DNA of 64,000 nucleotides from Candidatus Raymondbacteria bacterium RIFOXYA2_FULL_49_16 (GTDB lineage Bacteria; Fibrobacterota; OXYB2-FULL-49-7; XYB2-FULL-49-35): NCBI GenBank assembly GCA_001789205.1, contig MFYT01000054.1, positions 8,139 through 72,138 on the forward strand, written 5' to 3'. The notes under the pieces were generated by a model. It worked only from the letters and a program-made list of their open reading frames with translations. It did not search any database and had not been told where the DNA came from. This document shows positions 14,432 through 38,670 of this stretch, piece by piece. Position numbers and translations under genes: made by a program. Every line of letters starts with the position of its first letter. Within the stretch, counting starts at the first letter, position 1.

Positions 14432-14453
14432 TGCCTTCGGCTTCGCTCAGGCA
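14432..14453 (+). repeat. Conserved-loop hairpin, copy 1
   Basis: Stem TGCC/GGCA enclosing the 14-nt loop TTCGGCTTCGCTCA, just after the yidC stop and before the end of the convergent sugar kinase gene. The stem is short here (6 bp if one mismatch is allowed). It belongs to a family of five hairpins in this window that share the loop while the stems differ. It may double as a weak bidirectional terminator. Confidence 0.6.
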
Positions 14454-14510
14454 ACAGAGCCAGTACAAGACGAGTCAAACATCATAATACCTTCAGGGAA
14501 GGGGCCCTGT

Positions 14511-14546
14511 CACCCGTACGGTGAGCGCAGCCGAACCGAACGGGTG
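14511..14546 (-). repeat. Conserved-loop hairpin, copy 2
   Basis: Read on the minus strand: 11-bp arms CACCCGTTCGG and CCGTACGGGTG (one T-T mismatch) around the loop TTCGGCTGCGCTCA. It lies in the yidC-pfkB convergent gap, opposite in orientation to copy 1. The arm sequences are unrelated to the other copies, while the loop is nearly identical. Confidence 0.75.
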
Positions 14547-14551
14547 AAGCG

Positions 14552-15475
14552 CTAATGCAGTATATTTCCAGGACGGACATTAAGGGCATTGAGCGCAGCA
14601 CAGCGCATGCCCTCGCGAATGGCGGTGACAAGTGGCGCGGCGCAGGAAAGCTGTGACGCCAACCCAGCGGTAAAAGCGTCCCCCGAGCCAGTGCTGTTCA
14701 CGGCCCGGATCTGTTTCACACCCACGCTCCCAATCCTGCCCCCATCAGCAAAGAGCACGGGAAAACGGCCGCGGGTAAGCACCACGGCGCATCCGTATTT
14801 TTTATTCAGCGACACCATGGTTTTCTCGACCCTGTGAAGCAGGCGGGCATTTTCACTCGACTCCGAAGCAGCAACGCCTGGAACAAATGTAGAAACAAAT
14901 TCTGCAAAATTCGGTTTTATAACCTGCGGTCCATATTCAAGGCAGCGAACCAGGTCTTTGCCTTTGATATCAAGAATAACGCGGACCTTCCACCTGCGGG
15001 CAGTGCGCACCATCCAGGGATATAGACTATCTGAAAAGCCCGTGGCTTTTGTGCCGGAAATAACAAGCGTATGAGCGTGGGTAATGCGGCGGAGAAAAAG
15101 ATTTTTGACACGGGCCTGGGTCAATCGGGTGACTGGGTCAGCCTCTTCGACAATTTCCGTTGTCTGGCCTGTTGCCGTATGTATCAGCGTATAGCAGAAA
15201 CGGATAGCCAAAGGAGCGGGCGCCGTATGCAGGCAAAGGACATGTTGTTTCGCGAGCGCGAGAAAACGGGCCGCGTTCCATCCGCCCGCCTGCGTTATGA
15301 GCTCGGCTTTGCATCCCAGCTGGCCCAAGACCCTGATGACATTGACGCCTTTGCCGCTGGCATCTTCGTATAAAGCCTCGACGCGATTGACCTCGCCGTG
15401 GATTAATTTTTTGAGCACCACGGTTTTTTGCAGGACCGGATTGAGACAGACAGTGAGAAAGAGGCGGGGATTCAT
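14552..15475 (-). CDS. PfkB-family sugar-phosphate kinase (1-phosphofructokinase/tagatose-6-P kinase type)
   Basis: 307-residue ribokinase-superfamily kinase. N-terminal LFLTVCLNPVLQKTVVLKKLIHGEVNRVE is typical of the FruK/LacC branch (CLNPxxD/Q). EDASGKGVNVIRVLGQLG is the sugar-binding block, and NSTGSGDAFTAGLASQL contains the anion hole and catalytic Asp (GSGDAF). The substrate is likely a fructose- or tagatose-phosphate, but specificity cannot be fixed. The usual Asp of the CLNPAxD motif appears replaced by Gln (NPVLQKT), which is notable. ATG at 15475 chosen; a TTG at 15487 directly after the purU stop is possible. No clear Shine-Dalgarno, consistent with coupling to purU. Confidence 0.85.
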   Translation of the reverse strand: MNPRLFLTVCLNPVLQKTVVLKKLIHGEVNRVEALYEDASGKGVNVIRVLGQLGCKAELITQAGGWNAARFLALAKQHVLCLHTAPAPLAIRFCYTLIHTATGQTTEIVEEADPVTRLTQARVKNLFLRRITHAHTLVISGTKATGFSDSLYPWMVRTARRWKVRVILDIKGKDLVRCLEYGPQVIKPNFAEFVSTFVPGVAASESSENARLLHRVEKTMVSLNKKYGCAVVLTRGRFPVLFADGGRIGSVGVKQIRAVNSTGSGDAFTAGLASQLSCAAPLVTAIREGMRCAALNALNVRPGNILH

Positions 15476-15487
15476 GGGCTGAAGCAA

Positions 15488-16345
15488 TCAGTCAAAAACA
15501 ACGGTCTTGTTTTTGTACACCAGCACGGTACGTTGCAGATGGGACCAGATGCCGCGCGAGAGGACGATTTTTTCCAGGTCGCGTCCTTTGCGTATCAGGT
15601 CGTCTATTGAATCGCGGTGCGAGATGCGGACAATGTCCTGCTTAATAATGGGCCCCGCATCAAGATCAGTGGTCACATAGTGGCAGGTTGCGCCGATGAT
15701 TTTGACCCCCCGGGCGTGGGCGGCATGGTAAGGCTTTGCGCCGACAAAGGCCGGCAAAAACGAATGGTGGATGTTTATGATTCGCGAAGGATACTGTACC
15801 ACAAAATCAGCGGAGAGGATCTGCATGTAGCGGGCCAAAACAATGAAATCGATCCGGTGTTCATTGAGCAGTGCGAGCGCCTTTTCTTCCTGGGCAGCCT
15901 TTGTTTCACGTGAAACCGGAAGCAGGTGAAAAGCAATGCCGAACCGCTCAGCGACTGGACGCAGGTCTTCGTGGTTGCTGATGATAAGCGGGATTTTTAC
16001 CTTCCAGTCACCCGATTCATAACTCGAGAGCATGTCGTACAAACAATGGGAGAGTTTTGACACAAAGACGGCCATGCGCTGTACCTGGTCTGAAAAATGA
16101 ATTTCAAACGAAAGATTGAGCGGAGCAGCAACAGCAGAGGAAAAAACCTCTCTAATTTTTTCAGCGGGAACCGCAAATCCTTCAAGATCCCATTCCACAC
16201 GCATGAAAAAGGCCTTTTCCACCACATCAACATGCTGGTCGAGGTCGAGGATGTTCCCTTTGTTGCTATAGATGAATTCAGTGACCGCAGCGACTATGCC
16301 TTTGCGGTCCGGACAGTTGATAAGCAGAATGGCAGATGAACCCAT
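15488..16345 (-). CDS. purU: Formyltetrahydrofolate deformylase
   Basis: 285 residues. An N-terminal ACT domain (LLINCPDRKGIVAAVTEFIYSNKGNILDLDQHVD, about 6-40) and a C-terminal formyltransferase-fold domain. The latter contains LLPVSRETKAAQE, IDFIVLARYMQIL, INIHHSFLPAFVGAKPYHAAHARGVKIIGATCHYVTTDLDAGPII (catalytic Asn-His-Asp region) and QDIVRISH. It hydrolyses 10-formyl-THF to formate and THF. The ATG at 16345 matches the normal N-terminus; no strong Shine-Dalgarno is seen. The gene contains a near-perfect parS site (15902-15917) encoding VSRET. Two conserved-loop hairpins lie just upstream of its start. Confidence 0.95.
   Translation of the reverse strand: MGSSAILLINCPDRKGIVAAVTEFIYSNKGNILDLDQHVDVVEKAFFMRVEWDLEGFAVPAEKIREVFSSAVAAPLNLSFEIHFSDQVQRMAVFVSKLSHCLYDMLSSYESGDWKVKIPLIISNHEDLRPVAERFGIAFHLLPVSRETKAAQEEKALALLNEHRIDFIVLARYMQILSADFVVQYPSRIINIHHSFLPAFVGAKPYHAAHARGVKIIGATCHYVTTDLDAGPIIKQDIVRISHRDSIDDLIRKGRDLEKIVLSRGIWSHLQRTVLVYKNKTVVFD
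15902..15917. promoter_or_regulatory. Second parS site, inside purU
   Basis: TGTTTCACGTGAAACC, 15 of 16 bases identical to the perfect site at 10393-10408, with the 14-bp core GTTTCACGTGAAAC intact. It is placed within the purU coding sequence about 5.5 kb from the first site. Multiple parS sites near oriC, some inside genes, are usual in bacteria. Confidence 0.88.
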
Positions 16346-16394
16346 ACGGTAAAAATGGTAATTCACAGCGGGTGAAGGCAATGGAGGATTTTCG

Positions 16395-16424
16395 CCGCAT
16401 GGTTCGACTACGCTCACCATGCGG
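16395..16424 (+). repeat. Conserved-loop hairpin, copy 3
   Basis: Perfect 8-bp arms CCGCATGG/CCATGCGG around loop TTCGACTACGCTCA, upstream of purU in the 197-bp gap to the cysteine synthase stop. Inside the purU 5' region it could be transcribed as part of a leader. Confidence 0.75.
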
Positions 16425-16462
16425 TTGGAAAAAGAGGTAGATCTCGTGGGCGAGGGGGAGGC

Positions 16463-16488
16463 GCCCGTAGAGCGAAGTCCAAACGGGC
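16463..16488 (-). repeat. Conserved-loop hairpin, copy 4 (diverged)
   Basis: Minus strand arms GCCCGT/ACGGGC around TTGGACTTCGCTCT, two changes from the common loop. It is 39 bp from copy 3 and inverted relative to it, mirroring the inverted pair formed by copies 1 and 2. Confidence 0.55.
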
Positions 16489-16542
16489 ATCGCATATATA
16501 AGTCTGTGCGTCGTTTAACCCTGGCCGTACGTGTCGGGAGGA

Positions 16543-17430
16543 CTACAACAGCGCGGTGCTGAAGTAGCGTTCAGCGCGGTCGGGGAGGACCGTGGCTATG
16601 TTACCGGAGATTTTACCAACAATGGCGCGCGCGGACCATACGTTTGCGCCCGATGATATGCCCACAAGAAGACCGTGGTCGCGGCCCAGCTGTTTGGTGG
16701 TGGCAATGGCGTCTTCATCCGTGACTTCGACAACATCGTCGACAAGGGAGACATCGAGCACAGCGGGAACAAAACCATCACCAATGCCCTGTATTTGGTG
16801 AAGGCCCGGCTCGTGGCCAAGAAGGGCTGATACGTTTTTTGGTTCAACAGCTATGATTTTAACGCCCGGCCTGTGTTCTTTTAAAAACGATCCAACGCCC
16901 TGCAGGGTGCCGCCTGAACCAACGCCTGCGATGAAACAATCGATGTCGCCCGACATTTGGCGCCACAATTCCCTCGCGGTTTCCTCATAATGAATGCGCG
17001 GATTGTCCTTGTTCTCGAACTGCTGGGGGACATACACGCGGCGGTCTTCTTTCCGCATGAGGGCCACGCGAGCCACTGCGCCGCCAATGCTCTCCGCCGC
17101 GGGCGTAAGAATCAGTTCAGCGCCAAGGGCGCGGATAAGCTTTTTCCTCTCTTCACTCATATTTTCTGGCATGACAATGATGACCTTGTATCCTTTGAGC
17201 CTGCCGACCATGGCTATCCCAATACCCGTGTTGCCCGAGGTAGGTTCAACAATAATGGAATCGGGTTTGAGATGGCCATCGCGTTCCGCCCCCTCGAGCA
17301 TGGCAAGGGCCACGCGGTCCTTGATGCTGCCGCCCGGGTTCAGGAATTCAGCCTTGGCAAAGACGCTTTCGCCTTTTAACCTGATGAGGGGGGTGTTGCC
17401 TATAAGGTCAAGTATGTTGTCAGTCAGCAT
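16543..17430 (-). CDS. cysK: Cysteine synthase (O-acetylserine sulfhydrylase), PLP-dependent
   Basis: 295 residues. Makes L-cysteine from O-acetylserine and sulfide. The PLP lysine is K37 in NPGGSIKDR; the substrate loop EPTSGNTGIGIAMVG and phosphate-binding GVGSGGTLQGVG are present, plus VGISSGANVW near the C-terminus. CysK and CysM are not cleanly separable, but the sequence resembles CysK/CBS-like bacterial forms. It ends 20-25 residues earlier than E. coli CysK. The ATG at 17430 follows the upstream nuclease stop by one base, so expression is coupled. No typical Shine-Dalgarno is seen. Confidence 0.93.
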   Translation of the reverse strand: MLTDNILDLIGNTPLIRLKGESVFAKAEFLNPGGSIKDRVALAMLEGAERDGHLKPDSIIVEPTSGNTGIGIAMVGRLKGYKVIIVMPENMSEERKKLIRALGAELILTPAAESIGGAVARVALMRKEDRRVYVPQQFENKDNPRIHYEETARELWRQMSGDIDCFIAGVGSGGTLQGVGSFLKEHRPGVKIIAVEPKNVSALLGHEPGLHQIQGIGDGFVPAVLDVSLVDDVVEVTDEDAIATTKQLGRDHGLLVGISSGANVWSARAIVGKISGNIATVLPDRAERYFSTALL

Positions 17431-17431
17431 A

Positions 17432-18829
17432 TCACAGGGAGATGGTATCGCCCAGCGCGGGATAGTGGACGTTCATATACCCATTGCTGCGCAGTGCGTC
17501 GCGGAACGAGAGCGCCTGCTCGGGTTCACCGTGTACCAGAAAAACGTTCTTCAATTTTTCCGGGGGTGTCATTCTCACATAGTTGAGCAGGTCACGACGG
17601 TCGCCGTGGGCGCTGAAACTGTCCATGGCCTTTATTTTGCAGGCAACACGATGTTCCTCGCCGAAGATGCGCACTACTTGATTGCCGTCCATGATGCGGC
17701 GGGCAAGGGTCTCTTTTGCCGCATAGCCGACAAAAAGAATGAGGTTATTGGGATTGTCTATACTATTGCGCAGGTGGTGGAGCACCCTGCCGCCTTCGCA
17801 CATGCCTGATCCCGCAATGATAATATGGGGAAAGGTGACATGGTTCAGCTTCTTCGACTCCTCTACATCGGTTATATAGGTGAGTCTCCGGAAGTCAAAA
17901 GGATCCTCATGCGAGCTCAGGAAAACACGTTCGGTTTCGCGGTCCATAAGCTCCGGATGGGCCCGGAATATCTCGGTGGCGTGCATGGCAAGGGGGCTGT
18001 CGACATAAATGGGGATTTCAGGAATGCGGTCCTGATTGAAAAGCTTGTGCAGCAGATAGACGAGAAGCTGGGTGCGTCCCACGGCAAACGAGGGGATGAT
18101 TATCTTTCCGCCTGTTTTTGTTGTTTCGCGTACAACCGTGGCAAGTTCCTCCTCCACATCTGCAAACTCGTGATGGTGGCGGTTGCCATACGTGGTTTCA
18201 ATAATGAGTGCGTCCACATCGCGTACGATATTAGGATCGCGGATGACTGGGATATTTGACCTGCCGACATCTCCGGAAAACCCGAGCTTGAGGGTCCGGC
18301 CCTTTTCGCTGATTTCAAGGAAAACACCCGCGGCGCCCAGTATGTGGCCCGCATCGTAAAAAGTGACCGAGATCCCGGGCGCCACTGGAAAAGCGATGTC
18401 ATATTCACGGGAAGTAAAATGTTCCATCGCGGCTTCGGCCTCCTCAGGCGAGTAGAGGGGGAGGGCGGGGGGCTGGCCGTGCTTTTTGCGTATTTTGTTG
18501 ACCCATTCAAGGTCCTTTGACTGGAGAAAGGCGGAATCGCGCAGCATGATCTTGCAGAGCTCGGCTGTTGCTGGCGTGGCGAAGATAAGGCCGCGAAAAC
18601 CGTGTTTTACCAGGTTCGGAAGGTTTCCCGCGTGGTCCATGTGCGCGTGCGACAACACCACGGCGTCGATTGCCGCGGGCGGGAAAAGGAATGACATGTT
18701 TTTTTCATACGATTCCTGCCTGCGTCCCTGGAAAAGGCCGCATTCGAGCAAAATATTTTTTCCATTGACAGAAAGAAGAAACTGGGAACCAGTGACCGTC
18801 TGGGCGCCGCCGCAAAAACGAATATCCAT
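17432..18829 (-). CDS. Metallo-beta-lactamase/beta-CASP RNA-processing nuclease (CPSF-like)
   Basis: 465 residues. The MBL domain has the zinc motif HAHMDH (H61, H63, D65, H66) and DAGHILGAAGVF; a beta-CASP insert lies at about 190-380 (PSFAVGRTQLLVYLLHKL, ADxx-type IIAGSGMCEGGRVLHHL), and a C-terminal RMMBL Zn-dependent block FSAHGDRRDLLNYV. It corresponds to the bacterial YSH1/CPSF73-like ribonucleases. Neither signal peptide nor extra domain is seen. ATG at 18829. It sits 1 bp upstream of cysteine synthase on the same strand, an arrangement without obvious functional link. Downstream of the RRM gene, which may reflect a shared RNA theme. Confidence 0.93.
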   Translation of the reverse strand: MDIRFCGGAQTVTGSQFLLSVNGKNILLECGLFQGRRQESYEKNMSFLFPPAAIDAVVLSHAHMDHAGNLPNLVKHGFRGLIFATPATAELCKIMLRDSAFLQSKDLEWVNKIRKKHGQPPALPLYSPEEAEAAMEHFTSREYDIAFPVAPGISVTFYDAGHILGAAGVFLEISEKGRTLKLGFSGDVGRSNIPVIRDPNIVRDVDALIIETTYGNRHHHEFADVEEELATVVRETTKTGGKIIIPSFAVGRTQLLVYLLHKLFNQDRIPEIPIYVDSPLAMHATEIFRAHPELMDRETERVFLSSHEDPFDFRRLTYITDVEESKKLNHVTFPHIIIAGSGMCEGGRVLHHLRNSIDNPNNLILFVGYAAKETLARRIMDGNQVVRIFGEEHRVACKIKAMDSFSAHGDRRDLLNYVRMTPPEKLKNVFLVHGEPEQALSFRDALRSNGYMNVHYPALGDTISL

Positions 18830-18923
18830 AGGGGGACCACTCCTTTGTTTTTCCTAAAAGAACCAAACCCGTTGCTTCCCTGCCGCCGGAGGAGCGGCAC
18901 AAATGCCTGGGGTACGCTTCGGA

Positions 18924-18934
18924 GGGGGGGGGGG
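18924..18934. repeat. Homopolymer tract of 11 G
   Basis: Eleven consecutive G between the nuclease gene start (18829) and the RRM gene stop (18947), preceded by GGA. It lies in non-coding DNA downstream of the RRM gene and upstream of the nuclease. Such tracts slip, but here no frame depends on it; spacing to the nuclease promoter could. Confidence 0.6.
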
Positions 18935-18946
18935 AAAACCGAACGG

Positions 18947-19210
18947 TCAGCGGGGACGGTCTTGACCGTCGTTGCGTTCGCGCGCTTCATTGACGCGAAG
19001 GTTGCGGCCGCCCAGTTCGGACCCGTTCGACTTTGCGATTGCGTCGGCGCCGTTTTCCATTTCAACAAAGCAGAACCCGCGGGGTTTGCCCGTGATACGG
19101 TCCTTGATTATATTGACGGAAAGGACTTCACCATACTGGCCGAAGAGGCCTTTTACTTCGTCTTCGGTTGCGGTGAACGGCAGGTTGCCGACATACAGTT
19201 TTGTGCTCAC
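18947..19210 (-). CDS. RRM-type RNA-binding protein
   Basis: 87 residues forming a single RNA recognition motif. RNP2 is LYVGNLPF (residues about 4-11) and RNP1 is KPRGFCFVEM (about 42-51), followed by the ELGGRNLRVNEA strand. Such small one-RRM proteins are common in cyanobacteria and several Gram-negative phyla and are often cold-induced. GTG start at 19210 with GGGAGGT 4-5 nt upstream; a TTG four codons earlier was rejected because it overlaps the ribosome binding site. A short basic/acidic tail (EARERNDGQDRPR) follows the domain. Confidence 0.92.
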   Translation of the reverse strand: MSTKLYVGNLPFTATEDEVKGLFGQYGEVLSVNIIKDRITGKPRGFCFVEMENGADAIAKSNGSELGGRNLRVNEARERNDGQDRPR

Positions 19211-19338
19211 AAGACCTCCCAAAAAGATGCTTTTAACTTATCCATCGCCTTTTTCCCGTATAGGGAAAAATACCTGACCAAGGCCTAAAAAGTATAATTA
19301 TTTCTCCGGCGCAATAGCAAAAAAAAGCTCTGTTGTCC

Positions 19339-20574
19339 CTATTTGGCAATAGACAAGCCCGCGCAATACCCCGAGGCAAAGGCGCAGGTAAGGTTGAATC
19401 CGCCGCAGGGACCGTCAATATCGAGCACCTCGCCCGCAATATGGAGGCCCGGCGTCTTTTTGCTTGCAAAGGATTCAGGATCCACACCCGCCAATGCAAC
19501 GCCGCCGCGAGCGACCATGGCGCCGTCAAACCCGGAAGTCCCGCATACCGTGAAAAAGCAGCCGGTTAACTGGGAGCAAAAAGTCCTTCGCGCCTGTGAG
19601 GTCAAATGGGCGGCGGTGGTTTCGGGTGTGCATCCTGCCTGCGAGCAGAGGAATTGCGCAAAGGAGCGGGGCATATGGTCCGCAAGAAGGTTTAGCACGG
19701 TTTTTCTGGGCAGCCGTTCGTACCATCCATCAAAGCGGTTAAGCCACATTTCCCTGGATGTTTCGGGAAAGAAGTCTATGGTAAGCAGCACTTTTCCCAG
19801 GCGTTCTATTGCCTCGGCAACGCTGCCGGAAATATCGAGTACCGCGGGTCCTGACAAGCCTTGGTGGGTGAAAAGAAGGGGGCCGGTTGCGGCAAATGCG
19901 CGGTATTTTGGCAGGTCTATGGCAACCCGTGCGTGTTCGAACGATGCGCCAGCGCATGATGCGACCCATGGTTCCTCTGTTTTCAGGGGCACAAGCGCTG
20001 GCAGCGGCGTCTTTATCGCATGACCAGCCTGGCGGCAGAGGGTGTATCCGCTCTCATTGCCCCCAAGATCGGGACGCGCCATACTGCCGGTTGCCACAAC
20101 CACATTTTTAGCTTTAAAAAAAGTTGATCCAGATGCCACACCGGTTACAATGCCGGCTTCAATGACCAGGGTGTCTATTTTTGTATGCGTCCGTATCTCA
20201 ACCCCGGCCCGGGTACAGGCTGTCACCAGCGCGCCAAGTATGTCCGCGGCTTTTTCTGAAGCAGGATACACATGAAAGGTGTCGGGCGACATGTGTTCAA
20301 CGCCGCATGATTTGAAAAACTCGATGATCGCCTCTGGTCCAAAGACGCCAAGCGCCTGGGCCATGAACCGTCCCTGTCGTCCCAGCCTGGGCCAGAACTC
20401 ATCGACCCCAAGCGTGTTGGTAAAGTTGCAGCGTCCTCCACCCGAGACAAGAATTTTTGCACCGGGCCGCGCGTTTTGCTCAAAGACAATGGTTTTTTTG
20501 CCCGCCCGCGCCGCAATGAGCGCTGCCATGAGGCCAGCAGGCCCTGCACCGGCGACAATGCAGTCGTAGGTCAT
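19339..20574 (-). CDS. FAD-dependent oxidoreductase, HI0933/BaiN family
   Basis: 411 residues. N-terminal FAD-binding motif VAGAGPAGLMAALIAARAGKKTIVFEQ, then PGAKILVSGGGRCNFTNT, VVATGSMARPDLGGNESGYTLC, TGLLFTHQGLSGPAVLDIS-like TGPLLFTHQGLSGPAV, and a C-terminal GLHIAGEVLDIDGPCGGFNLTCAFASGYCAGL. These are diagnostic of the HI0933/YhiN/BaiN flavoprotein family, whose physiological substrate is generally unknown. The ATG at 20574 overlaps the stop of the upstream glycerol kinase by 4 bp (ATGA); the longer frame lies inside that gene. Cotranscription with glycerol kinase is likely. Confidence 0.93.
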   Translation of the reverse strand: MTYDCIVAGAGPAGLMAALIAARAGKKTIVFEQNARPGAKILVSGGGRCNFTNTLGVDEFWPRLGRQGRFMAQALGVFGPEAIIEFFKSCGVEHMSPDTFHVYPASEKAADILGALVTACTRAGVEIRTHTKIDTLVIEAGIVTGVASGSTFFKAKNVVVATGSMARPDLGGNESGYTLCRQAGHAIKTPLPALVPLKTEEPWVASCAGASFEHARVAIDLPKYRAFAATGPLLFTHQGLSGPAVLDISGSVAEAIERLGKVLLTIDFFPETSREMWLNRFDGWYERLPRKTVLNLLADHMPRSFAQFLCSQAGCTPETTAAHLTSQARRTFCSQLTGCFFTVCGTSGFDGAMVARGGVALAGVDPESFASKKTPGLHIAGEVLDIDGPCGGFNLTCAFASGYCAGLSIAK

Positions 20575-22022
20575 ACCGTAACCGCCTGTCGCAGGGCCCT
20601 GCGCCACCCCGATACAAGCGCTGCGCGCGTCCTGTTCTTCATTGCGGGGACAAAAACACGGTCTATTGATTTGTGCGCAAAAAGGGCCTCGTGCGTTTTC
20701 CACACGCCCGCTTTGAGGCCAGCCAGGTATGCCGCGCCAAGTGAAGTTGATTCTATGACAGTGGGACGCACCACGGATTTTCCCAGGATGTCCGCCTGAA
20801 ACTGCATGAGAAAATCGTTTGCGCTTGCCCCGCCATCAACAGCAAGGCTTTTGACCGCAATGGCGGTTTCGCGTTCCATGGCCTCCAGCACATCGAGGGT
20901 CTGGTATGCCATTGATTCGAGCGCCGCCCGTATAATGTGGTTTCTGTTTGCGCCGCGCGTTAACCCGGCAAGAATTCCCCGGGCCTCCATGTTCCAGTGG
21001 GGCGCGCCCAGGCCCACAAAGGCGGGCACCAGATAGACGCCGTTGGTATTTTCCACCGCCCGCGCTGCGGCCTCACTTTCGGATGCCGTGTTCAGCAGCT
21101 TCAGTTCATCGCGCAGCCACTGGATGGCCGCGCCCGCGATAAATATTGATCCTTCGAGCGCGTAGCACGGATTTCCCTTGCCATTAACCGCCAGGGTAGT
21201 GATGAGGCCCTTTGTCGAGTGCACCGGCACGTCTCCGGTGTTCATAACAGCGAAGCAGCCAGTGCCATAGGTGTTTTTTATGCTTCCTTTTTCAAAGCAC
21301 GTCTGGCCAAAGAGCGCCGCCTGCTGGTCGCCCGCGACACCAAAGACGGGCGCCCCGCGGATCTGAGGCAGAGATTCAACGATACCGTAGTCATCGATGG
21401 ATTTTTTAACCTGGGGCAACAGGGCGGGAAATATGTTCATGAGGTCGCACAGTTCCTGGTCCCACTTTTTAGCGTGGATGTTGAAAAGCATGGTACGCGA
21501 CGCATTGGTGAAGTCCGTGGCATGCGTTTTTCCGCCTGTCAATTTCCAGACGAGCCAGGTGTCAATTGTCCCAAAAAGCAGGCCTTCTTGGTATCCGCCG
21601 ATCGCGTCCAGGATCCACTGGATTTTTGTCCCTGAAAAATAGGCGTCAACCGGCAGGCCGGTCCTTTCCCTAATGAACGGTTCGTGCTGTTTCAGGCGCG
21701 CGCACTGGTCCGCGGTGCGCCTGCACTGCCAAACAATGGCGTTATGCACCGGTGTTCCGGTTTTTTTATCCCACATAACAGTGGTTTCACGCTGGTTGGT
21801 GATACCGAGGGCAGCGATGCGTTTGGCGCGTTCGGGCGTGCAGATTTCAGCGACAGTCTCTTGCACGGTTTTCCAGATTTCAAGCGGATCGTGTTCGACC
21901 CAGCCGGGTTTCGGGAAGATTTGCCTGAATTCACGATAGGCCTTTGCCACGGGCGCGCCGGATTCTTCGTACAAGACAGTGGTGGTGCCGGTTGTTCCTT
22001 GGTCAATGGCGAGGACATACAT
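20571..22022 (-). CDS. glpK: Glycerol kinase
   Basis: 483 residues. FGGY-family sugar kinase with the glycerol kinase pattern: YVLAIDQGTTGTTTVLYEESG, PGWVEHDPLEIWKTVQ, GITNQRETTVMWDKKTGTPVHNAIVWQCRRTADQC, AGDQQAALFGQTCFEKGSIKNTYGTGCF, GLGAPHWNMEARGILAGLTRGANRNHIIRAALESMAYQT and DGGASANDFLMQFQADIL. It phosphorylates glycerol to sn-glycerol 3-phosphate. ATG at 22022 chosen; no clear Shine-Dalgarno. No glycerol facilitator or GlpD gene is adjacent; its partner is the BaiN-like flavoprotein, which overlaps it by 4 bp. Confidence 0.96.
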   Translation of the reverse strand: MYVLAIDQGTTGTTTVLYEESGAPVAKAYREFRQIFPKPGWVEHDPLEIWKTVQETVAEICTPERAKRIAALGITNQRETTVMWDKKTGTPVHNAIVWQCRRTADQCARLKQHEPFIRERTGLPVDAYFSGTKIQWILDAIGGYQEGLLFGTIDTWLVWKLTGGKTHATDFTNASRTMLFNIHAKKWDQELCDLMNIFPALLPQVKKSIDDYGIVESLPQIRGAPVFGVAGDQQAALFGQTCFEKGSIKNTYGTGCFAVMNTGDVPVHSTKGLITTLAVNGKGNPCYALEGSIFIAGAAIQWLRDELKLLNTASESEAAARAVENTNGVYLVPAFVGLGAPHWNMEARGILAGLTRGANRNHIIRAALESMAYQTLDVLEAMERETAIAVKSLAVDGGASANDFLMQFQADILGKSVVRPTVIESTSLGAAYLAGLKAGVWKTHEALFAHKSIDRVFVPAMKNRTRAALVSGWRRALRQAVTV

Positions 22023-22088
22023 GGTGAAAATATACTCAATATGGGCGGTGTCTCGATATGCTGCGCTACTCGACAACCGCCCTGGCGG

Positions 22089-24125: not shown

Positions 24126-24131
24126 GCGGGA

Positions 24132-24437
24132 TCAGGCGTCTATGACCGAATTATCGCAATTTGAAAATGACGAATAGGCGTAGGCGTCCGCGTCTTCCTC
24201 ATTGTACCAGTTGCCGTGAGCCACATATTTGAACTGGTATTCCTTGTTGATAGGGAGATCTATGGTAAGCGTAAATGTTCCATCCTTTCCTTTTTTCATG
24301 ATATGAGCAGTCTGGTTCCATCCATTGAAATCGCCCGCCACCGCGACAGAGGGTGCGTTTGCCACAGTGTGGGGCAAGAGGAAAAACGTCACCCTGCATA
24401 CTGGCTTGTCTTTAAGGTATTCCTTCTTCATGCTCAT
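24132..24437 (-). CDS. Small stand-alone CBM48-like (isoamylase early-set) protein
   Basis: 101 residues made of one beta-sandwich domain of the AMPK-beta/CBM48 glycogen-binding type: VAVAGDFNGWNQTAHIMKKGKDGTFTLTIDLP, then YQFKYVAHGNWYNEEDADAYAYSSFSNCDNSVI. ATG at 24437 with a strong AGGAGG 6 nt upstream. No catalytic domain, signal peptide or membrane segment. It is the first gene of a leftward pair with the GH42-like enzyme (6-bp gap). A paralogue of the same length and ending pattern lies at 33236-33544, also leading a leftward gene set. It may bind alpha-glucan or be a regulatory subunit; not known. Confidence 0.88.
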   Translation of the reverse strand: MSMKKEYLKDKPVCRVTFFLLPHTVANAPSVAVAGDFNGWNQTAHIMKKGKDGTFTLTIDLPINKEYQFKYVAHGNWYNEEDADAYAYSSFSNCDNSVIDA

Positions 24438-28771: not shown

Positions 28772-28788
28772 ATACAATCCCGGGCCTG

Positions 28789-31437: not shown

Positions 31438-31451
31438 ACTGAACCTCCACG

Positions 31452-32129: not shown

Positions 32130-32147
32130 GCGCTGTTTTTGCGGCGT

Positions 32148-32681
32148 TTATTTAGCCATGCACCCGATTGCACCAGTTTCGGTATTGTATACAAAGGAGC
32201 TGCCGTCGGGATTGAATATCTCAAGGACATTGTCTTCGCGAACCTCGGCGACCTTGATAGAACCGGTTTTGTCTTGCGCATACCACGACTCCTCAGCGGC
32301 ATTATAGACCAGGCTGACGGTCTGGCCAGTCCGCGGGCCCGAGAGAAGCGATATGTCCATCCGGTTTTGAGAAGCGGCGATTTTATAAGTCTCGGTGTCT
32401 TTTACCACGATCGTTTCCTGGTGTTCGAATTCGCCCATGGTAATAGGGTTTGACCCGGTCCAGAATTCAATAGTATTGAAGATAAAAAAGTCGACCGCCC
32501 CGACGGCCGCGTACACGGGGACAATCATCATGATCCACATGACCGCACTATTAGCGGCCCGACCTCCCAGCGATCCGTTCCATTGGTACAGTTCTTTTGT
32601 AAGCTGGAATTTACCATAGCACCCGGAAAACAGGAACAATGCGAGAGATACCAGGACCAGGGCTGATTTAACGCGTTTCAT
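32148..32681 (-). CDS. DUF3332-family lipoprotein
   Basis: 177 residues. Signal peptide with a clear lipobox: MKRVKSALVLVSLALFLFSGC. The mature part holds FQLTKELYQWNGSLGGRAANSAVMWIMMIVPVYAAVGAVDFFIFNTIEFWTGSNPI, which is a hallmark of DUF3332, including a hydrophobic segment, then a beta-rich tail. Function of the family is unknown; it is known from Bacteroidetes and related lineages. ATG at 32681 with GAGGAAGT about 6 nt upstream; an upstream in-frame ATG was rejected. It lies in the sugar cluster between the isomerase and the YhcH-like gene. Confidence 0.85.
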   Translation of the reverse strand: MKRVKSALVLVSLALFLFSGCYGKFQLTKELYQWNGSLGGRAANSAVMWIMMIVPVYAAVGAVDFFIFNTIEFWTGSNPITMGEFEHQETIVVKDTETYKIAASQNRMDISLLSGPRTGQTVSLVYNAAEESWYAQDKTGSIKVAEVREDNVLEIFNPDGSSFVYNTETGAIGCMAK

Positions 32682-32728
32682 GGAGACTTCCTCTTTTAAA
32701 GGATTAATGCCCGGAGAGCGGGAACGAA

Positions 32729-33196
32729 TCACCCGGCCGCGGCCCAGGCTATCTTTAGCACGACTTTTTTTATTTTTTCTGATTGTGTTTCCGCGAAAAG
32801 CTGGGGTGTGTGCGCGTCATCAGGATAAAACGCGGCAAAGAGGCCGGGCTTCATGACCATTTCAGAGAGCGGGACCACGGCTGTGTCGTAGAATTCCGCG
32901 TCTTTTGATTCGTCATAGGGGGTTTTTATGACACACACTTTTTTTGGCACCCAGGCGAGCTTTTCCTTCCCGGAAATGGTTATATGCACATCAATATATT
33001 TACGGTGGGTCTCGAGAATGGCCTTGTCACGGCCGTGCGTGCCGTAGCTTACCACAATGGCATAAAGGTCGTTTTCCCGAAGGAAGTATTTTTTTTCTTC
33101 GGAGGAAACAGAGAGGCCGCGGACAAAGGCGAGGGCTTCGTCCCAAACAGAGCCTTTAAAATAAAGACCCCAGGCGTCCAATGAGTCGAGGATCAT
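32729..33196 (-). CDS. YhcH/YjgK/YiaL-family protein
   Basis: 155 residues of the DUF386 (YhcH/YjgK/YiaL) cupin-like family. LETHRKYIDVHITISGKEKLAWVP is the family signature with putative metal ligands, and FYDTAVVPLSEMVMKPGLFAAFYPDDAHTPQLFAE supplies the rest. Members sit in sialic acid or sugar operons and are suggested to help anomer or sugar-acid handling; biochemical function is weakly known. ATG at 33196; no strong Shine-Dalgarno. Coupled by 39 bp to the upstream CBM48 protein. Confidence 0.88.
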   Translation of the reverse strand: MILDSLDAWGLYFKGSVWDEALAFVRGLSVSSEEKKYFLRENDLYAIVVSYGTHGRDKAILETHRKYIDVHITISGKEKLAWVPKKVCVIKTPYDESKDAEFYDTAVVPLSEMVMKPGLFAAFYPDDAHTPQLFAETQSEKIKKVVLKIAWAAAG

Positions 33197-33235
33197 GGAT
33201 GCGGTGCTATCCGAATTATGGTATGGACCGGTGTA

Positions 33236-33544
33236 TTAGACCGTGACGACGCAGTTGTCCGTGTGCGCGAACGACGAGAAGGCGTACGCGTCAGCGGCGG
33301 GATCGTTGAGCCAGCGGCCTCCATCGAGCAGGTATCTGAACTGGTAGTTGCGGCCCTTTTGCAGGTTAAGGGACACATAGTACCCGCCGCGAGGCAGCTT
33401 TTTCATGGCCGTGGTCTTGGGATTCCATTCATTGAAATCGCCGACAAGCGCCACTGATTTCACGCTTTCGGTCAGCTCCTTGGGAAGCGTAAAGGTCACC
33501 TTTACCTGAGGTTTGCCTTTGATGGGTTCTTTCTTGAGACTCAT
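33236..33544 (-). CDS. Small stand-alone CBM48-like protein, paralogue
   Basis: 102 residues, one glycogen-binding-like beta-sandwich: SVALVGDFNEWNPKTTAMKKLPRGGYYVSLNLQKGRNYQFRYLLDGGRWLNDPAADAYAFSSFAHTDNCVV. It matches the 24132-24437 protein along its length, including the DADAYAYSSF...DN ending. Strong AAGGAGG 4 nt before the ATG. It leads a leftward set with the YhcH-like, DUF3332 and isomerase genes. As in the paralogue, no catalytic part or export signal is present. Confidence 0.9.
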   Translation of the reverse strand: MSLKKEPIKGKPQVKVTFTLPKELTESVKSVALVGDFNEWNPKTTAMKKLPRGGYYVSLNLQKGRNYQFRYLLDGGRWLNDPAADAYAFSSFAHTDNCVVTV

Positions 33545-33856
33545 GGATCCTCCTTAAAAATTTTCTTTCCCGGACAGACAATAATATAATGTTTGGCAAT
33601 ATGAGAATTCAATAGCCTATTTTAATTAGATTAAGTAAAACTTGGGGTGGGCTTAAACAAAGCATCGTCAGCATAACGCTTTGATTATTAAGTTGTTATA
33701 TTCATTTAACATAAAAGAAAATGTTGCTCCAGAGGATTTAATATTTTTAATCTTTCTAGTTGGAAGGGCGCGCGAGGGCTAAAGAGTAGTGTGACTGGTG
33801 TGAAGGTATTTTGTATTTTTACAGAGTACAGACACATGAATATGGAGGACTATAGA
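33545..33856. other. AT-rich intergenic stretch, nothing recognised
   Basis: Between the divergent CBM48 and GIY-YIG genes. AT-rich with scattered TTTAATT/TTAACAT words, so probably promoters for both directions, but no clear -35/-10 pair, hairpin or repeat was found. The GIY-YIG ribosome binding site GGAGGA is at 33844-33849. Confidence 0.4.
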
Positions 33857-34183
33857 ATGCTCGATAAAAAAGAAGCCATTAAACGATACAAACAGACCAT
33901 TCAGCCCATGGGCATTTTTCGGGTCAAGAACCTGGCAAACGGAAAGGTATTCATTGACAGCAGTAAAAACCTCAACAGCTCATTGAACAGCAACCAGTTT
34001 CAGCTTAAACTAGGTGCGCACAGGAACAGGCCCCCTCAGGAGGATTATAACAGTTTTGGCGAGGACCAGTTTGTTTTTGAGATATTGGACCAGCTAAAAC
34101 CAAAGGACGATGACCCAGCGTACGATTACACCGAGGATCTTGAAGTGCTGAAATCAATATGGCTGGAAAAAATTGGGCTATGA
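33857..34183 (+). CDS. GIY-YIG-like nuclease-family protein (degenerate active site)
   Basis: 108 residues. The GIY-YIG fold pattern is visible: MGIFRVKNLANGKVFIDSSKNLNSSLNSNQFQLKLGAHRNRPPQEDYNSFGEDQFVFEILDQLKPKDDDPAYDYTEDLEVLKSIWLEKIG. GIY is GIF and YIG is FID, and the usual NLxxRLNxH Arg/His are Ser/Asn here, so catalysis may be lost. The FGEDxFxFEILD helix and the LKPKDDP-YDYTEDL tail match a bacterial single-domain GIY-YIG subfamily. ATG at 33857 chosen for the GGAGGA 7 nt upstream; two upstream in-frame ATGs lack this. After the stop, another frame continues for about 25 codons (YDYSDAFEHC...), perhaps chance. Confidence 0.75.
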   Translation: MLDKKEAIKRYKQTIQPMGIFRVKNLANGKVFIDSSKNLNSSLNSNQFQLKLGAHRNRPPQEDYNSFGEDQFVFEILDQLKPKDDDPAYDYTEDLEVLKSIWLEKIGL

Positions 34184-34405
34184 TTACTCCGATGCGTTCG
34201 AACATTGCCGGTGCATGAAACATTATTATAAACCAACCGACAATGACGCTTAATATTAACGATCATGTCGCGACGTGGTGGCGTTACGCGAAGGCACGAT
34301 GATTTCCACGTCAGACAGGGACGCCTAAGAAGCTTGTGCCTTCGTATTGATACGCAGGATGACCAGATGATCCACTACGACGGTATAAAGGTAAAATAAT
34401 AGAAG

Positions 34406-34423
34406 AGCCGGTTTTTTCGGGCT
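34406..34423 (-). terminator. Possible weak terminator after the CorA-like gene
   Basis: On the minus strand AGCCCG-AAAAAA-CCGGCT forms a short GC stem (one imperfect pair) followed by CTTCTATTATTTT, just beyond the stop of the leftward CorA-like gene. The stem is short and the T-run broken, so this is tentative. The rest of the 34184-34440 gap shows nothing else. Confidence 0.3.
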
Positions 34424-34440
34424 GCACACGGGTAACAGAG

Positions 34441-35385
34441 TTATTTTTTTAACTTGGTTTTTTCCCTGCCAATGCGGCTTATGATAACATACACAAGCAG
34501 GCCAAGCAGGACCATGGAAAAAGAAAAACAACCATAGGCCACTTTCCAGCTGATGTGGCGGGTCATCATGCTGTATTCGGACATGCCGCCAATGCCCGCG
34601 ATAAGATTGAGGGGCATAAAAACGATATTGATGATGGTAAGCCGCTTGATAAGCACATTCAGGTTGTTGTTCACCACGCCCGCGCGCGCGTCCATAAGGG
34701 ACGAAAGGACGTTTGAATAGATTTCGGCCTGTTTGTAGCACTGCGTGTTATCGATGACCAAATCGTCGAGCGCTTCGAGCTCTTCCTTTGTGATGCCCAG
34801 TTTTCCCGCGTTGTATTTGAGCTTTTCAATCACCATGCTATTGGCGTTTATGGAATTAAGATAATAGACCAGGCTCTTTCCCAGGGTGAACATATGAATG
34901 AGGTACTTGTTCTCCATGGATTGGTTCACCTTCTGCTCAATCTCCCCTGAAATCATGTTAATAATCCGTAGATGCTCAAAATAGTGATAGATGGTGCGTC
35001 CAAGGAGCTTGATGAGAACCTCATTCAACGAGGCCACGCGTAAAAACTGGCGGCCTTCGAAAAAGGGGAAGTCGTCGGAACTGACAACGATGAGCGAGTC
35101 TTTGAACTTGAAGATACCGATGGAACAGACCTTGAACAGAAGCTCGTCTTCGGCCGACCGGTTGGTGGGGCGCTTGAAAATGATGGCAACGTGGTCGAGT
35201 TCGAATTCGAGACGGGAGATTTCATCCGGGTCCAGGGCTGAACTGAGGGTGTGCTCGTCAACGTTGTAATTTTTTATAAGGAGTTCTTTTTCAGCGCTGT
35301 CGGGGCTTATGCAGACAAGGATGGTGCTGTTTTCTCGGTTGCTTGCGGCTATTGCGCCATTGGTGAGGTCGAATTTCTTGATCAT
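34441..35385 (-). CDS. CorA-like divalent cation transporter (GMS variant)
   Basis: 314 residues. N-terminal alpha/beta cytoplasmic domain (about 1-210), a long helix, and two C-terminal membrane helices (about 240-265 and 280-305). The pore loop signature reads IAGIGGMSEYSMM: GMS in place of the canonical GMN of Mg2+ CorA. Lack of Asn suggests altered selectivity or a subfamily such as those in Bacteroidetes-like genomes. The C-terminus is very basic (GREKTKLKK). ATG at 35385. A single gene between two unrelated regions. Confidence 0.88.
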   Translation of the reverse strand: MIKKFDLTNGAIAASNRENSTILVCISPDSAEKELLIKNYNVDEHTLSSALDPDEISRLEFELDHVAIIFKRPTNRSAEDELLFKVCSIGIFKFKDSLIVVSSDDFPFFEGRQFLRVASLNEVLIKLLGRTIYHYFEHLRIINMISGEIEQKVNQSMENKYLIHMFTLGKSLVYYLNSINANSMVIEKLKYNAGKLGITKEELEALDDLVIDNTQCYKQAEIYSNVLSSLMDARAGVVNNNLNVLIKRLTIINIVFMPLNLIAGIGGMSEYSMMTRHISWKVAYGCFSFSMVLLGLLVYVIISRIGREKTKLKK

Positions 35386-35553
35386 GGGTCCGCGCTCCCC
35401 AAATCCGGAAAAATTGTTCCCTCACAAAATAGCTATTCAAGCCGGGAAATTCAAAGGCTAAAGTGAAGGCGCACGCGGCACTAAGCGGCACTAAAAGGAG
35501 ATATATTCAAGGACCACAGGCTTTGCCAAGATTGGATAGTCACATCGGCATTA

Positions 35554-35573
35554 GGGCGTCATTCATTCAACGA
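35554..35573. repeat. Partial relative of the 28.6-kb hairpin unit
   Basis: GGGCGTCATTC (35554-35564) is identical to the left arm of the three tandem units, followed after a 4-nt shift by ATTCAACGAATGCCCC, a decayed right arm. It sits in the 231-bp CorA-grpB gap and shows the unit occurs at more than one locus. Confidence 0.5.
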
Positions 35574-35616
35574 ATGCCCCCTTTTTCTTCTTTGCTCATG
35601 AGTGAAGCGATCTTTT

Positions 35617-35823
35617 TCACGAAAGATCCTTTCCCCATAGTGTAATGGTTTCTGTCGTTCTGGTACTTGGATGCCAGGACACCTCAACTAAAATGTCGAT
35701 AATGGGTTTGGCCGGGATTCCAGGTATTGAGGTGCTGCCATAATGCTCAATTCTCAATGCGAGTTCCGAGCCGAGTGTCTTCAAGATCCAGGCCTTGAGC
35801 TCTTCATATTTGCTTGGCCACAC
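35617..35823 (-). pseudogene. GrpB/UPF0157 gene remnant
   Basis: 68 codons. Residues 1-46 (WPSKYEELKAWILKTLGSELALRIEHYGSTSIPGIPAKPIIDILVEV) match the GrpB nucleotidyltransferase-like family signature IEH-GSTSIPG-PAKPIIDILV. The match ends abruptly and the frame then reads unrelated residues to a stop. The normal N-terminal residues before WP are missing too, with a TAA four codons upstream of the GTG. So both ends are broken. The full family is about 170 residues. Confidence 0.75.
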
Positions 35824-36202
35824 GGGGAAAGCTTATAGCAATTATTCATATTGTATTCGTATGTCAGATGCCTTGTGGGGCAAGGCATCTCGGTAATCTT
35901 AGTTTCCCGTCCATAAACCCCTGAATAGAAATTGAGCATATCATTGTCATAGGGTTGGTCGATTTTCAGCGTTCCGAAAATTCCAACCGCCAGCAAGGTG
36001 CCGGTAGATTTGGCTGGTCCGATTCTAAAATCTTTCATGGTTTTCTGGTTTCTTTCTCTTCGCCTTGCCTTTATGTATTGAGGCGTGTATTTTATTCTGG
36101 AGTATTGGCAGCCGGGTTTCACGCAATTTGTGCTAAGCGAACCGGGATTCGTTGAATACTCAGAAAAAACATTCAACCATATCCAAAACCGTACTCAAAA
36201 AC
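35824..36202. other. 379-bp stretch without a supported gene
   Basis: An open frame on the minus strand (ATG at 36038 to 35781, 85 codons, MKDFRIGPAKSTGTLLAVG...) overlaps the grpB remnant and has only a poor ribosome binding site, so it is not called. It has a plausible hydrophobic start but no recognised family. No repeats or hairpins were noticed. Confidence 0.35.
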
Positions 36203-37186
36203 CTAAAGCCGTTTTATCCCGCGTCCGCGTGTGAGCGCATAATCGCGCGCTTTGAGCACAGTCGCGGGAATGGCTTCGTAGGGCAGTACCCCGGTGCCAA
36301 TGCATGTATGTTGGCGCACCGCGGAGAGCTCCACAATCCGGTCGATTTCCTCGAAGGCCTTCCAGATATCGGCCAAGGTCAGGACTTTGGGATCCATGTT
36401 TACCCGTACCACTACGTCCGGATAGCGTTCCATGGTTTTCATGAACAGCGCCTGGTCGGTTTCCGATGGACAGATAACATACATGGTCCCGGTTTCAAGC
36501 AGGGATTCAACAATGGGCGCTGTATTACCGCCGATAATGCAGGGCACCGGCTTTCCGGCCGTGGCAGAGGCTGCGGCAATAAGACCAGCGAGAGCCGGCA
36601 GTTCCATGCCTCTGAAATCATCGGGTGAAAGCAGGGGAGGGGTGGCTGCGGATTCGAACAGGGAAACGCCAAGGCCAGCGTTGACAATGGCCCTGCAGAA
36701 CTCTTCCTGCGCAGCCGCCAGATGCACCAGCGCTTTTCTCACGTCATCTGGGTCAGTGACCGCTTCGCAGAGAAGCGTATTGAGCCCAACAAGGGCCGCG
36801 GCAATGGAAAAGGGACCGCTCACCGGAACGCGCACGTCAGCGTCAGGATGGGCTGCTGCAAAGCGCTTCGCGGTTTCCAGGACCATGGGCATGCGGCCGT
36901 CCACAGACGGATTATACTGTTTCAGCGAAGGAATATCGTTTGTCGAGGTGCAGACAGGCCGCGAAACAGCCGGGACGCCAGCGCCTTCTGGTTCTCCAAT
37001 TATGGCGCCATACGCTTCAGCTTCTATATTATAGATATCGATGCCTATGACAACAGGTGAATGGCGGTAGCAGCGAAAGGCCTCTGAGTGCGCATCGTAC
37101 AACAGAGAGCCGCTGCGTGAGACCTCCCAGGGGGTCTTGTTGATCAGCCGTGCCGCGTGCTCATAAACTGCGGGTGCGAAATCCAT
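36203..37186 (-). CDS. Uroporphyrinogen decarboxylase-domain protein (MtaA/CmuA-like)
   Basis: 327-residue TIM-barrel protein of the UroD superfamily. Features: AVYEHAARLINKTPWEVSRSGSLLYDAHSEAFRCYRHSPVVIGIDIYNIEAEAYGA, then VRVPVSGPFSIAAALVG, a DPDDVRKALVHLAAAQEEFCRAIVNAG helix, a conserved PC-IIGGNTAPIVESLLETGTMYVICPSETD stretch and a C-terminal IGTGVLPYEAIPATVLKARDYA. These fit methyltransferase-type UroD proteins rather than the heme enzyme HemE. Acceptor and corrinoid partner unknown; no corrinoid protein gene is adjacent. A second member is at 57107-58093. Confidence 0.8.
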   Translation of the reverse strand: MDFAPAVYEHAARLINKTPWEVSRSGSLLYDAHSEAFRCYRHSPVVIGIDIYNIEAEAYGAIIGEPEGAGVPAVSRPVCTSTNDIPSLKQYNPSVDGRMPMVLETAKRFAAAHPDADVRVPVSGPFSIAAALVGLNTLLCEAVTDPDDVRKALVHLAAAQEEFCRAIVNAGLGVSLFESAATPPLLSPDDFRGMELPALAGLIAAASATAGKPVPCIIGGNTAPIVESLLETGTMYVICPSETDQALFMKTMERYPDVVVRVNMDPKVLTLADIWKAFEEIDRIVELSAVRQHTCIGTGVLPYEAIPATVLKARDYALTRGRGIKRL

Positions 37187-37313
37187 GGGATTAAAAATGC
37201 ATATTAAACGTCTTAAAAGGCAAAAGCTCTGCGAAAATCATTGATTGCGGGCCTGTGATTTTGCGATTTTATTGCATCACATTGAACGGAAAACCTGTTT
37301 CGCGGAGGAACAC

Positions 37314-38615
37314 ATGGATGGATTGACCCAGATGTCTGAAAAAGCGGTTCTTACATTGCCGGGCAAGCGCATTGAGCTGCCCCTGTTTGAGGGTTCAGAG
37401 GGAGAGCGGGCCATTGACATTGGCGCTTTGCGAAAAGAGGCTGGATGCATCACGTTTGACAATGGTTTTTCGAACACGGCTTCGTGCCTCTCTGATATTT
37501 GCTTTATTGACGGGGAAAAGGGCATACTCAGGTACCGTGGATACGATATCGAGGACATTGCGGCGCACTGTACCTTTGTTGAGGTGGCCTATCTTTTGGT
37601 GCATGGCAAGTTGCCTACTGAACCAGAGCTCAAGACCTTCAGCGAGTACCTGAACGAGCACTCCATGATCCACGAGGACATGCAGAATTTTTTCAACGGC
37701 ATGCCCCCGCAGTCGCATCCTATGGCCATTCTTTCCTCCATGGTCACTTCGCTCTCCAGCTTTTACCCGCACATCATGGACGCTGATCCCAACTTTGACA
37801 TCACGGCAGCACGGCTCATCTCAAAGGTGCGCACCATTGCCGCTTTTTCGTACAAGAAGTCGCGGGGTGAACCCGTGGTGTATCCGCGCCACGACCTTCC
37901 CTACTGCGCCAATTTCCTCAACATGATGTTCCAGTCGCCCGTAAAGCAGTACGAGATACGGCCTGAGGTCGTTGAGGCGCTGAACAAGCTCCTGATTTTG
38001 CACGCTGACCACGAGCAGAACTGCTCAACCTCCACAGTGCGCATGGTGGCAAGCTCTGGCGCAAACCTCTACGCGGCAATGTCCGCTGGCGTTTCAGCGC
38101 TCTGGGGGCCATACCACGGCGGCGCAAATCAGGCGGTCATTGAGATGCTCAACGAGATCATCAATGATAACATGAACATTAAAAAGTATATTGCCAAGGC
38201 CAAGGACAAAAACGACAAGTTCCGGCTCATGGGATTCGGCCATGCAGTATACAAAAACTTCGACCCGCGCTCCAAGTTCATCAAGGGCGTCTGCGACAAT
38301 CTTCTGGCGAAGATGAAGATTATCGACCCGCTGCTTGACGTTGCCAAGCAACTGGAGGAAGCGGCACTGAGCGATTCCTATTTTATTGAACGCAAGCTTT
38401 ATCCCAATGTGGATTTTTATTCAGGAATCATCTACCGCGCAATAGGCATTCCCACAAACATGCTCACGGTCATGTTCGCCATTGGCCGGTTGCCCGGATG
38501 GATCGCCCACTGGAAAGAGACTGTGGATAACAAGCACTGGAAGATCTGGCGGCCCAGGCAGGTATATGTGGGGCCAGCGCGGCGCGACTTTATTCCCATG
38601 AATAAGAGGGCGTAG
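37314..38615 (+). CDS. gltA: Citrate synthase (type II, hexameric-like)
   Basis: 433 residues. Condenses oxaloacetate and acetyl-CoA. Motifs: GILRYRGYDIEDIAAHCTFVEVAYLLVHGKLPT, HADHEQNCSTSTVRMVASSGANLYAAMSAGVSALWGPYHGGANQAV (catalytic His), MGFGHAVYKNFDPRSKFIK (catalytic His) and YPNVDFYSGIIYRAIGIP (catalytic Asp). The N-terminal extension with beta-strands is typical of Gram-negative type II enzymes. ATG at 37314 with GGAGGAA about 6 nt upstream; the longer in-frame extension lacks support. A conserved-loop hairpin starts 20 bp after the stop. Confidence 0.97.
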   Translation: MDGLTQMSEKAVLTLPGKRIELPLFEGSEGERAIDIGALRKEAGCITFDNGFSNTASCLSDICFIDGEKGILRYRGYDIEDIAAHCTFVEVAYLLVHGKLPTEPELKTFSEYLNEHSMIHEDMQNFFNGMPPQSHPMAILSSMVTSLSSFYPHIMDADPNFDITAARLISKVRTIAAFSYKKSRGEPVVYPRHDLPYCANFLNMMFQSPVKQYEIRPEVVEALNKLLILHADHEQNCSTSTVRMVASSGANLYAAMSAGVSALWGPYHGGANQAVIEMLNEIINDNMNIKKYIAKAKDKNDKFRLMGFGHAVYKNFDPRSKFIKGVCDNLLAKMKIIDPLLDVAKQLEEAALSDSYFIERKLYPNVDFYSGIIYRAIGIPTNMLTVMFAIGRLPGWIAHWKETVDNKHWKIWRPRQVYVGPARRDFIPMNKRA

Positions 38616-38635
38616 GCGGTTTAGCCCAGAAAAGT

Positions 38636-38670
38636 GCCACGGCCCTTCGACTTCGCTCAGGGGCCGTGGC
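38636..38670 (+). repeat. Conserved-loop hairpin, copy 5
   Basis: Arms GCCACGGCCC and GGGGCCGTGGC (9 perfect pairs, one bulged G, one closing pair) around loop TTCGACTTCGCTCA, 20 bp after the citrate synthase stop. A T-run is absent, so it is not a classic terminator, though the position suggests transcript 3'-end protection or termination. Confidence 0.75.

Follow-up and report, generated by a model that had tools for sequence, protein, structure and literature searches.

The 64,000-nt stretch of contig MFYT01000054.1 from Candidatus Raymondbacteria bacterium RIFOXYA2_FULL_49_16 that we analyzed (the window, whose positions serve as coordinates unless a contig is named) contains five hairpins that share a 14-nt center and differ in their stems. 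Our analysis of this genome (G000; other G labels denote other genomes compared) indicated that the hairpins belong to an element that is real, widespread, and structurally informative, and that is probably a dispersed mobile palindrome, similar to repetitive extragenic palindromes (REPs), recognized by its folded tip. The case for a hairpin family from the window alone was modest: with up to two mismatches to the 14-nt sequence, 14 matches were found versus 5.7 expected, and the maximum in 100 shuffles was 11. The genome-wide count was decisive, as TTCGNCTNCGCTCA occurred in 41 exact copies versus 1 copy of a reversed-pattern control.

A constant tip on exchangeable stems

A preliminary description of the window had proposed that the arms were paired within each copy and differed between copies. 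This proved correct. Over the first eight arm positions, the copies in the G000 genome averaged 6.88 Watson-Crick pairs, versus 4.04 +/- 0.21 pairs when the 3' arms were re-dealt among copies (maximum of 2,000 shuffles, 4.73). Because re-dealing cut the pairing from 6.88 to 4.04, complementarity was a property of the individual copy and not merely of a common stem. Across the genome, the copies were neither devoid of complementary arms nor built on identical arms. The stems had also been called unrelated, and they did differ between copies, but three subfamilies (ccgctgcc, acgctcgt, and cacggcccc) were found beside the unique stems, and a CG step was frequent at stem pairs 6 and 7. Stems reached 13 bp in this genome and ranged from 3 to 13 bp overall. 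Position 5 of the 14-nt sequence was A or G in 41/41 exact copies, and position 8 was any base. The palindrome stem ACGCTCGT carried the tip in all four of its occurrences in G000, so the idea that stems were palindromes pre-dating the tip was not supported in this case; the stem CGCTGCC carried the tip in 6 of 12 occurrences.

Stem pairs changed on both sides while the 5' tag and the tip remained constant; that is, the stems covaried between constant flanks. Copies in Dyadobacter arcticus had the form TTGTCA-NNC-tip-GNN, and among 34 of them pairs 2 and 3 were Watson-Crick in 94% and 88% of cases, versus the 37% and 44% expected from base use. Copies in G040 had the form CCGTTCG-NN-C, with gtgc/gcac, gcac/gtgc, and gtcc/ggac as arms. 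The tag itself varied by lineage (TTGTCA, CCGTTC, GCCTG, GTTTA, or CCG). A CGTC/TGTC tag, including (T/C)GTCA, was present in G037/G039, Dyadobacter, Flavobacterium, and the second window copy, and it was absent from sphingomonads and from most G000 copies.

The 14-nt center had been described as a conserved loop. Its constancy was upheld, but the unfolded reading was not: the sequence is better read from the opposite strand, where it would be a folded tip with the motif stem-TGAG-C-[GNA]-G-Y-CGAA-stem'. In our model, two adjacent G.A pairs can form between TGAG and CGAA, and G4-C11 and C5-G9 can pair around the GNA turn with Y10 bulged, forming a mini-hairpin. To test the tip code without bias, we scanned viral contigs with free positions in the motif. 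The triplet between CCTGAGC and GTCGAAGG was GNA in 70 of 127 cases (GAA 21, GTA 19, GGA 19, and GCA 11; the next most common triplet, TTT, occurred 6 times), the doublet at the same place was CT or TT in 99 of 136 cases, and the base following GNAG was T or C in 114 of 118 cases. The tip therefore obeys a narrow code, which is GNA or YT and then a pyrimidine. The 14-mer as such gave a weaker signal in the viral contigs (82 copies, with a mean arm run of 1.4 versus 0.41). A few 13-nt copies of the YT type were found in G000, including one inverted pair at C23:118147 and 118183.

Turns of the GNA and two-base kinds are characteristic of compact hairpins in DNA, not in RNA. Papers cited in PMC6479982 describe GNA turns in DNA as exceptionally stable. 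Among the work cited there are DNA mini-hairpins of the d(GCGAAGC) type (Hirao 1994, Yoshizawa 1997), which resemble our tip in having a GNA triplet with a free N that is closed by C-G. Those hairpins were in vitro oligonucleotides, whereas the tip described here has an added bulged pyrimidine and G.A pairs, and its fold is a model.

The copies in G000 were mainly intergenic and many adjoined stop codons; neighboring copies formed 8 tags-inside pairs, 5 tags-outside pairs, and 1 tandem pair. The position near stop codons raises the alternative that the pairing is kept by selection on an RNA-level element, which would act in 3'-end protection, attenuation, or protein binding. The RNA version was predicted to fold well on either strand, and in G017/G037/G039 the TGAG strand was the sense strand in 25 versus 8 cases in which the flanking genes were co-directional. 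However, both orientations were found 3' of genes, inverted pairs were common in G000, sister species were nearly without copies, and the turns are of the kind associated with DNA (GNA papers cited in PMC6479982). In addition, no T-run was seen in the 3' flanks of the copies listed, which also led us to reject a Rho-independent terminator. An RNA-level element thus seemed unlikely. No Rfam family reached its gathering score in the window.

Distribution across bacteria

Within the phylum of G000, 34 of 40 genomes had the motif; copy numbers across the 40 ran from 0 to 64, and abundance was patchy within genera (0, 1, 2, 33, and 61 copies in g7; 1, 12, and 64 copies in g11). Among the matches listed from a species-genome collection, the same tip with matching stems recurred in at least about a dozen bacterial phyla, including Bacteroidota, Cyanobacteria, Pseudomonadota, Chloroflexota, Acidobacteriota, Planctomycetota, Spirochaetota, Patescibacteria, and others, where the support for any one phylum may be a single copy. 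Within these listed matches, at least three arm pairs were present in 93 of 140 copies, versus 11.9 (maximum, 21) after re-dealing, and the modal arm run was exactly 3 bp. Four genomes reached through the species-collection matches had 191 copies (Sphingomonas yabuuchiae), 185 copies (G040), 123 copies (Flavobacterium poyangense), and 44 copies (Dyadobacter arcticus), with a control count of 0 in each.

A constant tip and a wide taxonomic range among the matches listed would also be expected of a host-beneficial DNA site that is under selection, such as a site for gyrase, a nucleoid protein, or a replication factor, and the E. coli REPs are gyrase targets (PMC3733652). We consider such a site very improbable given the near absence of copies from sister species of rich ones and the lineage specificity of the tags. 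A pan-bacterial superfamily of mobile palindromes, with the folded tip TGAG-C-GNA/YT-G-Y-CGAA, a sequence-free stem, and a single-strand-DNA enzyme outside Y1/RAYT, is a more tentative proposal than the mobile palindrome itself; if it were true, the superfamily would unite many repeats that are so far unnamed. Common environmental bacteria harbor tens to about 190 copies each, in which the fixed tip and exchangeable stem pairs amount to a natural mutational scan of what the recognizer would read. Searches for short loops would miss the element; for comparison, the REP finder RepRanger has a default loop limit of 11 nt (PMC12306157).

Two unusual arrangements were observed in the genomes compared. 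In G038 (L077, contig C13), the tip was present in a tandem array with a 25-bp period and five copies in the same orientation. In G030 (L083, L090, L093, and L098), several copies had a constant CTTGTTTATCTCGGCG (or CCTGTTTATC...) after CGAA in place of a complementary arm.

Proposed mobility and the enzyme question

Some hairpins resided in miniature inverted-repeat transposable elements (MITEs). Three complete loci of about 122 bp, with the terminal inverted repeat TAGTNTCTGTTYAAAATY and the flanks TAATTA or TAAATA, were found in G000:

C71:57858-57980, MITE copy of about 122 bp with two hairpins that have different stems (L833)
C97:4027-4149, MITE copy of about 122 bp with two hairpins that have different stems (L835)
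C99:4196-4318, MITE copy of about 122 bp with two hairpins that have different stems (L837)

A multi-copy MITE-like unit in G012 had other ends (terminal repeats) and also carried two hairpins in each copy. With two hairpins per unit in both cases, one might suppose that DDE-type MITEs are the sole carriers by which hairpins spread, that those elsewhere are decayed remnants, and that the tip has no recognizer of its own. However, the two MITE backbones have no ends in common, the same tip occurs with other flanks in many phyla, and most copies are without such ends. The window copies are among the latter. Spread as MITE passengers only is therefore a doubtful explanation.

The copies also differed at orthologous sites. 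G017 and G037 share about 90% identity across long syntenic blocks, and of the 22 orthologous sites tested, 3 lacked the exact tip in one genome; shared sites were favored by the sampling, and one of these 3 differences may be coding sequence. At one orthologous site, the full tip module alternated with TCGGTG on the stem ATTCCCGC/GCGGGAAT. At three loci in G037 (L461, L462, and L473), a second hairpin, TGAG-TTTAAT-CGAA, directly adjoined the tip, and the extra 24 bp of L461 were missing at the orthologous G017 site (L427).

In G017/G037/G039, the TGAG strand coincided with the skew-leading strand for 51 of 68 copies, some of which are shared by descent and hence not independent (p=4e-5 versus 0.5; p=9e-4 versus the gene background of 0.55). 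The TGAG strand therefore lies on the lagging-strand template, which is the orientation known for single-strand transposons (PMC6006769).

We propose that the strand 5'-tag-stem-TGAG-C-(GNA or YT)-G-Y-CGAA-stem'-3' would fold in the cell when it is single-stranded. The stem would pair, two G.A pairs would join TGAG to CGAA, and a minimal DNA turn would close the tip. A putative single-strand-DNA enzyme would then read the folded tip and the lineage-specific tag 5' of the stem; the stem would be a scaffold only, and therefore any complementary sequence would serve. Movement would proceed through single-stranded DNA, with copies multiplying singly, as inverted pairs, or as MITE passengers and settling mainly between genes. 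The preliminary description had suggested a selected structure or one moved via loop recognition. That suggestion was supported in part, given the constant coded tip, the free paired stems, and the dispersed paired copies that were gained or lost.

The obvious candidate for such an enzyme was a Y1 transposase of the RAYT (TnpA-REP) kind, which might have been lost from some hosts or might act from other replicons. The REP-like anatomy, 5' tags, inverted pairs, and lagging-strand orientation are in keeping with this candidate, and Y1 genes occur in some element-bearing hosts. However, Y1 was absent from S. yabuuchiae despite its 191 copies, as well as from the rich or moderately rich genomes G012, G017, G023, G027, G037, and G039. 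No exact copy was found within about 1.5 kb on each side of 42 Y1 loci; two of the Y1 loci (L105 and L107) had a one-mismatch copy nearby, and Y1 near hairpins in other phyla gave one match over all loci scanned. Because Y1 was absent from rich genomes, exact copies were not found beside Y1 loci, and the GTAG tag was missing, we rejected membership in the RAYT-mobilized GTAG REPs, and movement by Y1 is improbable.

Several observations weigh against a mobile palindrome that is recognized by its tip. The distribution of Y1 transposases does not follow that of the element, and no moving enzyme was found in a search of the Y1 family only. A clean insertion with target duplication was not seen for the bare hairpin. 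The strand bias comes from one genus (G017/G037/G039), in which gene direction is a partial confounder, and in Flavobacterium the bias was not readable because all sampled stretches had negative skew. Finally, nearest-neighbor folding energies did not discriminate between the two strands, and the choice of strand therefore rests on the tip code, the tags, and the orientation.

The element had been described as the reverse of REP-type repeats. A constant tip with a free stem was indeed found, but the contrast was too strong: PMC8266576 and PMC3733652 indicate that published REP families also include units with different stems and that REP recognition runs via loops, bulges, and the 5' tag. Like the GTAG REPs and REPINs with RAYT (PMC8266576, PMC3116915), the element has a tag 5' of the hairpin, a strand-specific anatomy, inverted pairs, an intergenic spread, and a loop or bulge, not the whole stem, as the recognized part. 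It differs from them in having no GTAG (GT[AG]G) at the 5' foot, where lineage tags such as TTGTCA, CCGTTC, GCCTG, and CCG are found, and in having several rich hosts without Y1 and no exact copy beside Y1 genes. The hairpins at IS200/IS605 ends are likewise short and imperfect, with unpaired bases and a lagging-strand template orientation, but no transposase gene lies between the copies here, and the copies are not IS ends.

A closer likeness is to the CGTC/TGTC-tagged REP repeats of Di Nocera et al. 2013 (PMC3733652), a group to which neisserial dRS3 and rickettsial RPE-4/-6 belong. Both groups are short palindromes found in several phyla, with a tag at one end and no dedicated transposase (only Y1 was searched here). 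In the CGTC REPs, head-to-head pairs predominate and some copies are genic, as for the hairpins here. The CGTC REPs have 8- to 9-bp stems that begin with AT and 4- to 5-nt loops, whereas the stems here are 3 to 13 bp, the tip is a coded 13 to 14 nt, and many lineages have other tags. In its tag, hairpin, inverted pairs, and intergenic spread, the element behaves like a REP, but it is only partly a CGTC REP. Neither the tip nor the stem freedom was found described in a partial literature search, in which the CGTC families were compared by their described features, and there may be overlap with listed CGTC families, for example in sphingomonads or Bacteroidetes. The folded oligonucleotide offers a concrete probe for the enzyme behind a repeat class that has lacked one since its 2013 description.

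REP insertions inside Y1 transposase-like genes are known for one RAYT subclass. In locus L033 (G000:C107:14797-17964), positions 973-1719 encode a Y1 transposase-like gene with an additional segment in frame; this segment contains VGAGLKPAPT, which resembles the translation of a GTAGGGGCGGGTTTGAAACC-type palindrome.

Copies in the window and their neighbors

All five hairpins were present at the positions given in the preliminary description. Four had exact matches to the 14-nt sequence (14436-14449, +; 14522-14535, -; 16403-16416, +; 38646-38659, +), and the sequence of copy 4 (16469-16482, -) had two changes. The copies and a related element are as follows:

14432..14453, - (TGAG strand), hairpin copy 1, perfect 4-bp stem, tip TGAGCGAAGCCGAA
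14511..14546, + (TGAG strand), hairpin copy 2, TGTC tag, stem ACCCGTACGG/CCGAACGGGT with one mismatch, tip TGAGCGCAGCCGAA
16395..16424, -, hairpin copy 3, 8-bp stem CCGCATGG/CCATGCGG, tip TGAGCGTAGTCGAA
16463..16488, +, hairpin copy 4, stem GCCCGT/ACGGGC, degenerate tip AGAGCGAAGTCCAA, inverted partner of copy 3
38636..38670, -, hairpin copy 5, 10-bp stem GCCACGGCCC/GGGCCGTGGC with one extra unpaired base, tip TGAGCGAAGTCGAA
38748..38785, +, related permuted element, TGTC tag, ATTTCGAA-stem-TGAGAAAT with a 7-bp inner stem

As had been proposed, copies 1 and 2 and copies 3 and 4 are inverted pairs with opposite TGAG strands. Copy 1 lies just past the 3' end of a yidC-like gene, and its inverted partner, copy 2, lies downstream of a pfkB-like gene. 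Copies 3 and 4 are in the spacer that separates a PALP (cysK-like) gene from purU, an open reading frame that is over-extended at its start (the ACT domain begins at residue 56). Copy 5 is 20 bp 3' of the citrate synthase stop codon.

A remark that a related logic appears as CATTTCGA...GAGAAATC also held, as the element at 38748-38785 has CGAA and TGAG in swapped order around a stem. This element can be written as TGTCATTTCGAATCAGCC-GCA-GGCTGATGAGAAATCCC, a palindrome of the CGTC/TGTC type whose inner stem lies between CGAA and TGAG, in the reverse of their order in the hairpins. Elsewhere in G000, locus L021 (C63:39819-40608) contained six copies within 0.8 kb, some of them between identical flanks, adjoining an N run; this cluster probably reflects a local duplication and a gap in the assembly.

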